Source: Candidatus Puniceispirillum sp.
GTDB taxonomy: Bacteria; Pseudomonadota; Alphaproteobacteria; Puniceispirillales; Puniceispirillaceae
Length of the DNA: 64,000 nucleotides
NCBI GenBank assembly: GCA_016778895.1
Contig: JADHOR010000006.1
Location: 1 to 64,000 of the forward strand
Direction of reading: 5' to 3'
Position numbers and translations under genes: made by a program. The notes below the pieces were generated by a model, which was given only the letters and a program-made list of their open reading frames with translations, did no database searches and was not told the DNA's origin. Shown here in pieces: positions 4,999-44,845 of this stretch. Numbering within the stretch: the stretch's first letter is position 1; each line of letters starts with the position of its first letter.

Positions 4999-5733
4999 TT
5001 AACTACGATATTCCGGCTCCTCGTCGTCCAGAATTGTGCGGATTGCCCTCAAATGCTGGTCAACGGTTCGATCCTGAATTTCCCATTGTTTTGCAGTTTT
5101 CTCAGCAATCGTGTCAGGTAGCACAGATAACTCCAAACCCGATGCTCTCGCCGTTAAATAAGTCCTACAAGCTCGCTCATAATAATATGCGAGATCAAAT
5201 GCCAAGGCGGGGGACTCGGCAACTGTCATGAAGCCATGATTGCCCATCATCACCATACGCTTGTTGCCAAGAATGGTCGACAGCCGCTCAGCCTCGTCAT
5301 CCAGTCCCATACCGTCAAAACCGATGTCAACCGCAACACGGTTAAAGAACCGGCAGCTGGTTTGATCGACCGGCAAAAGGCTCGGATCTTTTAACGCGCT
5401 GAGCGCCGTTGCGTAATGCGAATGCAAATGAACGATGCACCGTGCCTGCGGATTGTTACGATGCATCGCCCCATGGATCCACCATGCTGTCGGATCAACC
5501 GTTTCACCATAATCAGACGGGGTTTTTCGCGCATCAAGCAACAACAGATCACTGGCCCGCATTTTTGAGAAATGGACCCCATAAGGGTTCATAAGAAAAA
5601 TCTGGCCATCATCCGAGACTGCATAGGAAAAGTGATTAGCGATGCCCTCATGCATTGCTTCGCGTGCCGACCAGCGAAAAATTGCCGCAAGATCGCGGCG
5701 CGCCTCGTCAATATCAACGATTATTTGAGACAT
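4999..5733 (-). CDS. Class II aldolase/adducin family protein
   Basis: Zn-dependent class II aldolase fold (fuculose-phosphate aldolase/adducin head), about 244 residues. The metal-site motif is visible as IVHLHSHYATALSA (His-x-His), with the third His likely in MMGNHGFMTV; GIANHFSYAV is the N-terminal family signature. The start at 5733 is preceded by GGGGGG. In many marine Alphaproteobacteria such stand-alone proteins are of unknown substrate. It lies upstream of and on the same strand as proX (163-base gap), and divergent from betB, suggesting shared regulation with quaternary-amine catabolism. No substrate is assigned. Confidence 0.82.
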   Translation of the reverse strand: MSQIIVDIDEARRDLAAIFRWSAREAMHEGIANHFSYAVSDDGQIFLMNPYGVHFSKMRASDLLLLDARKTPSDYGETVDPTAWWIHGAMHRNNPQARCIVHLHSHYATALSALKDPSLLPVDQTSCRFFNRVAVDIGFDGMGLDDEAERLSTILGNKRMVMMGNHGFMTVAESPALAFDLAYYYERACRTYLTARASGLELSVLPDTIAEKTAKQWEIQDRTVDQHLRAIRTILDDEEPEYRS

Positions 5734-20479: not shown

Positions 20480-20488
20480 GATCATTAA

Positions 20489-41573: not shown

Positions 41574-42119
41574 ATGACCGTATTATCAAGCCAGCACGAA
41601 ATCGACATTCTGATTACCGAAGCCGAGATTGCCGCCCGCACGATTAATCTTGCCCGTCAAATTACCGAACATTACAAAGGAACCGAACAATTGGTTGTTG
41701 TTGGGCTGTTGCGCGGATCATTTGTGTTTATCGCCGATCTTGTGCGTCGGCTGGCGCTTCCTGTCGAGGTCGATTTCATGACCGTATCGTCTTACGGCAA
41801 TGACACTGTTTCATCACGCCAGGTGCGAATCCTTCAAGATCTTGAAACCCCGATCAAAAACCGCGATGTACTGATTGTCGAAGATATTGTCGACACCGGC
41901 CATACCCTGTCGCAAGTACAAAAAATCCTTATGACACGATCACCAAAAAGCCTGTCGATCTGCACGCTGTTGAATAAACCATCACGGCGCGAGGTTGAGG
42001 TGAATGTCGATTGGGTTGGTTTTGACATTCCAGACGCATTTGTCATTGGCTATGGCATTGATTTCGCTCAACAAGGTCGCAATCTGCCACATATTGGTGT
42101 TGTTAAAGACGTTTCATAA
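41574..42119 (+). CDS. hpt: Hypoxanthine phosphoribosyltransferase
   Basis: Salvages hypoxanthine (and perhaps guanine) to the nucleotide using PRPP, 181 residues. The PRPP loop is [14 protein letters not shown] (two acidic residues then D-T-G-x-T); [16 protein letters not shown] gives the cis-peptide region, [12 protein letters not shown] the flexible loop and [19 protein letters not shown] the purine-binding C-terminus. Length matches bacterial HPRT. It is monocistronic, reading toward the dddP pseudogene 83 bases beyond. Confidence 0.96.
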
Positions 42120-42202: not shown

Positions 42203-43531
42203 TCAGCAGAGGAATTGGGCTTCATACCGGTATGTTGAAAGCAGCACCGCACCCGCATCGGTGACCAGCACCTGTTCTTCAAGCTTGACCCCATCAGCAC
42301 CACCAACCGCGCCGACATTGGCCTCGACACAAAGTGTCATTCCGACCTCAAAACTGCCGCCATAGCCATGCGCCTCCACATCTTCTGGATAGCGTACCGA
42401 CGGATATTCATCGCAAAGCCCAACGCCATGCGCCAATACACCATAGCGCAGCGGGCGAAACGCCGCTGGCAAGCGGTGCACAATTCGCGTCATATCGGCA
42501 AAGCTCATGCCGGCCTCGATCAGGCCGATGTTGGTCATCACATGATCATAGGCAATCTGGTAAAGATGCTTTTGCCGGTCAGTTGGCACCGCATCACCCA
42601 CGATCCATGTCCGTGAAATATCGCAGCAATAGCCATATGTGCCGACAAGATCCGTATCAAAGGCCATCAGATCGCCGGCCTGCATAATGCGGGGACCGCA
42701 TTCCTGAAACCACGTATTCGTGCGCGGGCCCGATGCCAAAATCCGCGTTTCAATCCATTCACCCCCGCGTTTGATATTGCCAGCATGTAATGCCGCCCAT
42801 AATTCAGCCTCGCTCAGCCCCGGGCGCATGATTTCGCGCATTTCATCAACCGACCGCTCACACGCGTGAATGGCGCATCGCATCGCGTTTAATTCATTAT
42901 CATTCTTGATCGAGCGTGCATGTTCGGTCAGCACCTGCCCTTCTAGCACCTCGACCCCAAGATCAGTTAATGCGGCATAGCCAATATGCTCGATCCGGTC
43001 GACTGCCAAGCGTTTATTTGTGCCAGCGTGATGCGCCATCACATCGACAATCTGAGCGGCGAAATCCTTGGCCGCTCACGCAGTATGGTCGCCAGTTTCA
43101 AAATAGAAAAAACTGGCACCACCGCGCAATTCACCGATCAGTGGCAGATGCGTCGAAAGATGCTAACAATTATGAAAATCCCACAAAATCATCTTGCCCT
43201 CGGGCGGTACAAACACCGCCCGTGCCGGATTATGCGCAATCCAAAGCTGCATATTTGTGCAATCAGTGGCATAGCGAATATTCAACGGATCAAACAACAG
43301 CAAACCGGCACAATCATGCTGGCGGATCTGCGCTTGCAAACGTGACAATCGATATGATCTCAAAGCGTGAAGATCGGGCGGGCTAATGCCGGCAGCGTGC
43401 CACTCACCAAAGGCCAGCGCGGTCGGGCCAATCTCGACACGATCATTATCATCTGGTGTTAAATCAGCTTTAAGATGCACCCGCCGGCTAGGGTCGATTT
43501 TTCGGTTTGAGCCAATAATGGTTTTATCCGT
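42203..43531 (-). pseudogene. dddP: DMSP lyase DddP, disrupted by two in-frame stops and start loss
   Basis: The reading frame aligns by eye, without gaps, to DddP, the M24-peptidase-like enzyme that cleaves dimethylsulfoniopropionate to dimethyl sulfide and acrylate. N-terminal KIDPSR, DNDRVEIGPTALAFGEW and DPLNIRYATDCTNMQLW are DddP-typical. Residues I recall as metal ligands and catalytic Asp are kept: FDTD, CDISRTW, AHGVGLCDEY, VEANVG, KLEEQ. TAG at 43163-43165 and TGA at 43076-43078 interrupt it in the same frame, and the protein-like sequence between and around them continues. The expected start is ACG (43529-43531). The 442 sense-or-stop codons equal the usual length, so decay seems recent. 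Readthrough or sequence error is the alternative. Confidence 0.85.
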
Positions 43532-43650
43532 CGCCGCCTTGCCACTATTACAAAGCAGATTGTCCTGATCTTTGCCTCAGCTAAACGCTAAAATTGCGAT
43601 ATCGCAATCATTTTATCATTGGCAATCGCGGCACAGCCATCGGCCCTAGC

Positions 43651-44649
43651 CTAAGCATTTACATCAACAACCAATCGGCCCTTAACCTTGCCTGCCAGAA
43701 TATCGGCGCCTGCCGCTGGGACCTCGCCAAGCCCAATCACCGACATGGTTGCCGCGATTTGCGCCGTTGGCAAATCACTTGCAAGACGCTGCCACGCCGC
43801 AACCCGGCGATCATACGCCGCCATAGCCGAATCGATTCCCAATAATGACACGCCGCGGATAATAAATGGAATTACCGTTGTTGGCAGGTCAGCACCACCA
43901 GCAAGCCCAACCGTCGCCACTGCACCGCCATATTGCATCTGGGCAAGGGCTCTTGCCAATATTGCGCTACCAACCGAGTCGACACATCCGGCCCAGCTTT
44001 CCGATTCCAGCGGCCGCCCACCGCCGTCGAGCATTTCAGCCCGCGGCAGAATATCGCTAGCACCAAGCCCCCGCAGATAATCAGCCGTTTCAGGCCGGCC
44101 CGTTACCGCGGTCACGTTGTAGCCGCGCGCGGCTAGCAATGCTGTTGCAAGCGAGCCAACACCGCCAGCAGCACCAGTAACCAGCACCGGCCCGCGATCT
44201 GGCGTAATCCCTGCATCTTCAAGTGCCAGAACCGATAGCATGGCAGTGACACCGGCAGTACCGATCGCCATTGCCTGCTGGCAATCCAGCCCATCTGCAA
44301 GCGGCACCAGCCAGTCGGCGCGCACCTTTGCAAATTGTGCATAACCGCCCCACCATACCTCGCCGACACGCCATCCCGTCAGCACCACAAGATCGCCCGC
44401 CTTGTAACGCTTGTCGGTGCTGCTGACCACTTCACCGGCAAAATCAATGCCCGGAACATGCGGATAGTTTCGCACCAACCCGCCCTTGCCCGACAGGCAT
44501 AGACCGTCTTTGTAATTGACCGTTGAATATTTGATTGCCACCAGAACATCACCATCTGCAGGTAAATCATCATGCCGCAAATCTGTCATTTCATGACTTA
44601 TAGATTTATCTTCGCCGCGATGCACCATAAGGGCTCTAAAACTAGACAT
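43651..44649 (-). CDS. acuI: Acrylyl-CoA reductase AcuI (YhdH family)
   Basis: NADPH-dependent medium-chain dehydrogenase/reductase, 332 residues, reducing acrylyl-CoA to propionyl-CoA; this protects cells from the toxic product of DMSP cleavage. NYKDGLCLSGKGGLVRNYPHVPGIDFAGEV and GEVWWGGYAQFAKVRADWLVPL are hallmarks (given here in parts), with the cofactor motif VTGAAGGVGSLATALLAARGY. It lacks catalytic zinc ligands, as the family does. The start at 44649 has AGGAG eight bases before it. It lies 119 bases upstream of the dddP pseudogene on the same strand; no frame damage is seen here. Confidence 0.92.
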   Translation of the reverse strand: MSSFRALMVHRGEDKSISHEMTDLRHDDLPADGDVLVAIKYSTVNYKDGLCLSGKGGLVRNYPHVPGIDFAGEVVSSTDKRYKAGDLVVLTGWRVGEVWWGGYAQFAKVRADWLVPLADGLDCQQAMAIGTAGVTAMLSVLALEDAGITPDRGPVLVTGAAGGVGSLATALLAARGYNVTAVTGRPETADYLRGLGASDILPRAEMLDGGGRPLESESWAGCVDSVGSAILARALAQMQYGGAVATVGLAGGADLPTTVIPFIIRGVSLLGIDSAMAAYDRRVAAWQRLASDLPTAQIAATMSVIGLGEVPAAGADILAGKVKGRLVVDVNA

Positions 44650-44845
44650 AGCGTTGCTCCTATATGTATCTGATGTAATTATCTGATAAATTCTCAATAG
44701 CATTTTTCACCGATGCCAAACAGCCCTAATCAAGGTGGCGTCAAACCTCTATGCTAGAGCCGCCGGCCCTAATCAATTGAGGCTTGGCATTAATGATCCT
44801 TTGGCTAATATTAAATATCTTACCGTTTGTTACAGGATTTTTAAA

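Follow-up and report, generated by a model that had tools for sequence, protein, structure and literature searches.

A probable unitary pseudogene of the DMSP lyase gene dddP at a locus of repeated loss in SAR116 bacteria

Introduction

The closest described relatives of the gene treated here are the dimethylsulfoniopropionate (DMSP) lyases DddP of roseobacters and of the SAR116 clade. For the roseobacter-type enzyme RdDddP, PMC4108388 names six metal ligands as well as Tyr366 and Asp377 as proposed catalytic residues, and PMC3338564 describes no tight linkage between dddP and acuI in roseobacters. The latter paper places acuI upstream of dddP in Candidatus Puniceispirillum marinum IMCC1322, a SAR116 strain shown, according to PMC4304780, to make dimethyl sulfide (DMS) from DMSP. 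PMC4304780 also presents SAR116 as the dominant dddP carrier reported in oligotrophic surface water of the northwestern Pacific, DMS production there being inferred from gene surveys; patchy occurrence of dddP in SAR116 is already published. Here we describe the dddP gene of another Candidatus Puniceispirillum (assembly GCA_016778895.1, handled here as G000), located within the first 64,000 nucleotides of contig JADHOR010000006.1, a stretch hereafter called the window. As in IMCC1322, acuI lies upstream of dddP; the IMCC1322 gene is uninterrupted, whereas that of the window is broken at its start codon, its Shine-Dalgarno sequence and two internal codons. We conclude that it is very probably a recently formed unitary pseudogene, at a locus where dddP has been lost repeatedly.

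Results

On the minus strand the dddP region gives a single frame resembling DddP, 443 codons long and interrupted by two stops ahead of its terminal TGA. The conceptual protein is matched over nearly its whole length by the roseobacter-type structures 4rzy (478 bits, E 2e-142) and 4b28 (443 bits; RdDddP, PMC4108388) and also contains the Pfam M24 and creatinase N-terminal domains. Against the NCBIfam DddP model NF043017 it scores 555 bits over residues 5-423 and does not reach the cut-off of 600, the protein scored having been started at GTG 43480 with X at the stops, which lowers the score. The counterparts of RdDddP D295, D297, D307, Y366, H371, D377, E406 and E421 are all kept (8/8), as they are in 31/31 other aligned DddPs, and the metal ligands and catalytic residues are thereby shared with the roseobacter-type enzymes. 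These are far more distant relatives and are intact, whereas the window frame is broken. Much closer are the uninterrupted dddP genes of five other congeners in a genus of 16 genomes including G000: identity is 95% to G004 and 94% to G005 over residues 1-425, 89% to G008, and 88% to G006 and G015. A chance frame, considered as a candidate, is excluded by the 94-95% identity to the uninterrupted G004 and G005 orthologues.

Four separate lesions, three arising by substitution and one by loss of three bases, distinguish this gene from its uninterrupted counterparts. The start site is ACG, where all five close intact relatives have ATG, and the three-base loss has reduced the Shine-Dalgarno sequence AAGGAGG of G004 and G005 to AAGG. 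The first ATG, GTG or TTG left in the frame is GTG 43480, and the open reading frame (ORF) beginning there is stopped by the TAG after 105 codons. This TAG replaces a residue that is Glu in 26/29 other DddPs; the TGA, 87 bases further on and separated from it by 28 codons, falls where the residue varies among DddPs and is Arg in G004 and G005. Neither stop occurs in any listed relative. Two further changes affect conserved positions: a Pro shared by G005 and by 29/29 DddPs that do not belong to the G004/G005 pair is Thr in the window frame, and a Tyr present in 27/29 other DddPs is altered in the window frame alone. Both lie in the 279-residue C-terminal part that remains open.

A sequence-only reading of the window had described a full-length DddP frame carrying TAG and TGA in the same frame, 87 bases apart, which the translation bears out, and had held that the 28 intervening codons look like DddP and that the metal-ligand and catalytic residues are preserved, in agreement with the alignment. 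The two comparisons it proposed, with characterised DddP and with close SAR116 genomes, point the same way, the former through 4rzy and the active-site residues, the latter through five uninterrupted congeners with ATG starts and neither stop. It was mistaken in supposing everything else intact, since the start is lost, the Shine-Dalgarno sequence is damaged and a highly conserved Pro has become Thr.

Table 1. Features of the dddP region of the window, with the basis of each assignment
Feature	Position	Strand	Basis
dddP, probable pseudogene (conceptual DMSP lyase frame, M24 fold)	42203..43531	-	full-length frame, 94-95% identity to uninterrupted G004/G005 DddP
Lost start codon, ACG for ATG	43529..43531	-	comparison with G004, G005, G006, G008, G015
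Damaged Shine-Dalgarno sequence, AAGG left of AAGGAGG	43532..43543	-	comparison with G004/G005
Premature TAG, otherwise Glu (26/29 DddPs)	43163..43165	-	alignment
Premature TGA, variable position (Arg in G004/G005)	43076..43078	-	alignment
First possible ORF in the dddP frame, GTG start, 105 aa, N-terminal fragment	43163..43480	-	ORF list
Internal ORF, GTG start, 279 aa, metal-binding domain without N-terminal domain; no sign of translation	42203..43042	-	ORF list, domains
acuI, acrylyl-CoA reductase, intact, directly upstream of dddP	43651..44703	-	TIGR02823
hpt, hypoxanthine phosphoribosyltransferase, intact, convergent neighbour; conserved locus boundary	41574..42119	+	profile match

The gene is disabled relative to uninterrupted orthologues at the same locus (G004, G005, G006, G008 and G015), whose neighbours are alike within contig reach. 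A second dddP that would compensate for the loss was not found in G000, a genome 99.6% complete and not closed: the sole other match is an M24 stretch with 28% identity (E 1e-4). A recent loss of DddP finds good support in the four lesions, the failure to find a second copy and a branch ratio of nonsynonymous to synonymous substitution rates (dN/dS) well below 1.

The substitution record underlies the last of these points. Assigned with outgroups, the window's own branch carries 15 synonymous changes, 11 missense, one nonsense (the TAG) and 19 scored as unresolved, with one of the two changes in the TGA codon included in the synonymous class and the other in the unresolved class. On the sister branch, 8 synonymous and 7 missense changes were counted. 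In a codon model of ten sequences with stops masked, dN/dS is 0.088 for the background and 0.265 for the own branch, twice the log-likelihood (lnL) difference being 7.6 against the background value and 7.0 against 1.0. Freeing the sister clade gives 0.206 for the own branch and 0.279 for the sister, and one shared raised class (0.229) fits equally well; with the sister free, fixing the own branch at 1.0 lowers the lnL by 5.1 units from its best value. Since the own-branch ratio is about 0.2-0.27 and 1.0 is rejected, most of the divergence on this branch appears to have arisen under constraint, and the loss to be recent. In a joint fit that includes the stops and the start loss, the share of the branch that postdates the loss is about 0.23 if the prior constraint was 0.088, or 0.25 if it was 0.2. 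In pairwise comparison with G005, the dN/dS of dddP is 0.20, a value equalled or exceeded by four of 53 other genes, the rest being lower.

Several observations weigh against a recent, straightforward pseudogene. The intact sister is equally relaxed, so that dN/dS by itself does not distinguish the disabled gene from a living one, as the lesions do; the sister too has changed a conserved residue, a Thr of 29/29 others, to Ser. The lesions also exceed what neutral decay would give at the joint best fit, where 0.55 stops are expected and the probabilities are about 0.10 for at least two stops and about 0.04 for a hit on the start codon. This mild excess was tested only after the lesions had been seen, and nothing is built on it here. 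Retention of the DMSP demethylase gene dmdA does not single out the genomes that have lost dddP: G005, G015, G025, G028 and G030, among others, carry dmdA alongside an uninterrupted dddP. Finally, the allele is known from a single assembly.

This last point is what could be said for a sequencing or assembly error hiding an intact dddP, an explanation that we nevertheless regard as very unlikely. An error would have to account for four separate lesions in one gene when no other verified gene is interrupted over 64 kb, and for the alteration of a Pro conserved in 29/29 others as well. When 61 ORFs of G005 were compared with the window (three of them without a match), dddP alone was clearly interrupted. 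An error-prone assembly was not seen: the 17 flagged lines comprise dddP, the three unmatched G005 ORFs and, for the most part, stop-to-stop extensions, judged to lie upstream of starts by comparing coordinates, as demonstrated for the frame at 20480. The exception among them is a short unverified frame (37326-36994) with 68% identity and one stop.

That the 279-residue ORF from GTG 43042 encodes a truncated protein retained for another function appears still more improbable. The ORF does hold a complete M24 domain with all metal ligands, and constraint is still visible on the branch; against this, no normally spaced Shine-Dalgarno sequence could be seen by eye ahead of GTG 43042, and the altered Pro and Tyr both fall within it. 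Least credible of all is that TAG and TGA are decoded as amino acids to give full DddP: the DddP-like frame between and beyond the stops, the eight preserved active-site residues and an own-branch dN/dS below 1 would be in keeping with it, but the lost start codon makes it implausible, the Shine-Dalgarno sequence is cut, two different stop codons would need recoding, in-frame stops relative to G005 are found in no other verified gene of the window, and both codons are ordinary terminators here (TAA 20, TAG 20 and TGA 13 among 53 gene stops). Of the two alternatives that the sequence-only reading had offered, recent loss of DMSP cleavage and recoding or readthrough, the first thus holds as a recent loss of DddP, given the lesions, the second copy not found and dN/dS, and the second falls on the start, the Shine-Dalgarno sequence and the ordinary stops.

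The pseudogene occupies a locus that is conserved beyond the genus. The order hpt-dddP-acuI, with a 3-hydroxyisobutyrate dehydrogenase-like gene behind hpt, recurs in G025, G029 and G030, which belong to other genera, and in the intact congeners within contig reach; a semialdehyde dehydrogenase gene follows in G004, G008, G025 and G030 and is absent from the next 1.8 kb of G029. The DddP of G030, flanked by the same hpt and dehydrogenase-like neighbours, is 81% identical to the window frame. In seven of the 15 other congeners (G002, G003, G009, G010, G011, G012 and G014), dddP is missing from this place: acuI and hpt share a contig, 76-316 bases separate their matched ends, and the interval gives no match to dddP. 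Three more (G001, G007 and G013) have no acuI at the cut-off, and the spot is hence not visible there.

Two of these absences can be read in some detail. The gap of G011 and G014 consists of about 60 bases resembling the start of the G008 acuI-dddP spacer, joined to pre-hpt sequence (24 bases in G011), and is a deletion scar. In a tree of acuI, hpt and the dehydrogenase gene, G011 and G014 cluster with G008, G006 and G015, all of which carry dddP, and not with G000, so that their loss of dddP is independent; inner supports are low (0.72-0.78). The 316-base gap of G002, G003 and G012 yields only weak dddP matches (57-63% over 67-137 bases, with additional short ones in G002), which may be remnants of the gene.

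Of the family's 61 genomes, 43 give at least one match to dddP at E 1e-40. The SAR116 type (at least 70% identity), counted by hand from match rows, is found in 38/61, two of them partial (G055 and G057), and is interrupted only in G000 and G029. The latter, SAR116 single-cell genome AG-893-M18 (L034/L096), offers the nearest parallel: at the same locus an open acuI stands beside a broken dddP, whose frame shifts near residue 197 and also contains an in-frame TAG. It differs from the window in belonging to another genus, in its lesions and in carrying an uninterrupted dddP of a second type (48% identity) elsewhere in the genome; being a single-cell genome 65% complete, it may contain errors. 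Genes of this second type, 47-52% identical to the SAR116 type, occur at other loci in G009 (L015, G009:C46), G013 (L016, G013:C34), G027, G029, G039 and G047, and G027, G029 and G047 have both types.

In G000, acuI and dmdA are open. The acuI product scores 432 bits against TIGR02823 (cut-off 297) and 418 against the narrower AcuI model NF051456, below its cut-off of 440. Matches to acuI at E 1e-90 are present in 49/61 family genomes, six match rows having one stop; in G006, the one checked of the six, the stop lies before the start codon. A frameshift splits acuI near its 3' end in G014 (L092, around 5419-5562), a genome also without dddP, and reflects either real decay or an assembly error. 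The dmdA gene (L063, 639-1757; G000:C25:2141-3256) has 372 codons and scores 562 bits (cut-off 410). At E 1e-130, dmdA is found in 23/61 family genomes.

Searches of G000 for lyases covered DddP, the cupin lyases, DddD and DddX, and left out DddY and DddU. No cupin lyase (PF16867) was found. DddD is about 830 residues long; no fused frame of that size was found, all frames of the 10 CoA-transferase III matches being of at most 447 residues. Two ADP-forming ligase-like frames are distant candidates for DddX: L111 matches the DddX structure 7cm9 best, at 184 bits against 178 for a 3-hydroxypropionate-CoA ligase, and L110 scores 230 and 201 bits with other ligases against 182 for 7cm9.

Discussion

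Based on the above data, we propose that the ancestral acuI-dddP-hpt locus of the family carried a working DMSP lyase, and that in the lineage of G000 the enzyme would have ceased to be needed, allowing hits on the start codon, the Shine-Dalgarno sequence and two codons of the N-terminal half to accumulate. Initiation at the normal site would be lost, and initiation at the next possible codon would end at the TAG, leaving no DddP made. With acuI and dmdA open, acrylate could still be handled and DMSP demethylated, with no DMS arising through DddP. We infer that the loss came about through a weak need for cleavage and that neither DddP protein nor DMS via DddP is produced. Loss of DMSP cleavage in this lineage is likely on the gene content described; the cell has probably retained demethylation and given up DMS production through DddP. 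The loss of DddP is well documented here but ordinary in kind.

A stronger proposal is that loss of dddP in this SAR116 genus was favoured, not merely tolerated, translation having been shut off at several points (Shine-Dalgarno sequence, start and two stops) faster than by neutral decay. We consider this doubtful. Within the genus, dmdA is present in 6/8 genomes without any dddP match against 4/8 with one (the pseudogene of G000 included), some of these genomes being far from complete; the split is a weak lead only, and dmdA retention does not clearly mark the genomes that have lost dddP. Were the proposal true, DddP or its fragments would be costly, the lyase would be shed repeatedly in lineages retaining acuI and, in many cases, dmdA, and a natural switch from cleavage to demethylation would have been caught in progress.

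The recent pseudogene favoured here has a practical side. The broken gene still reads as DddP over nearly its full length, and amplicon or metagenome surveys would probably score it as a lyase. Moreover, G000 and G005, whose uninterrupted dddP is about 95% identical, would form a natural comparison, with cleavage lost and demethylation kept in the former. Our search of the literature on dddP pseudogenes, dddP gene loss and SAR116 pseudogenes, which left subscription papers mostly outside, found no report of this allele.

Some minor features of the genome deserve mention. Promoter-like sites (5, against 3.2 in shuffles) and terminator-like sites (1, against 3.3) show no clear excess. Synonymous divergence (dS) from G005 is about 0.28-0.56 for nearly all genes between 5.9 and 42.1 kb (one reaches 0.86) and only 0.06-0.17 from dddP to 64 kb, the left end of the window being mixed and mostly lower; the sharp break near the dddP/hpt boundary looks like a recombination mosaic. 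Two DmdA-like aminomethyltransferase paralogues of G000, L044 (G000:C21) and L045 (G000:C32), score 373 and 387 bits, below the DmdA cut-off. The dmdA products of G000 and G009 share 99% identity, against 72% for the acuI products of the two genomes, which suggests a recent transfer of dmdA between the two lineages.
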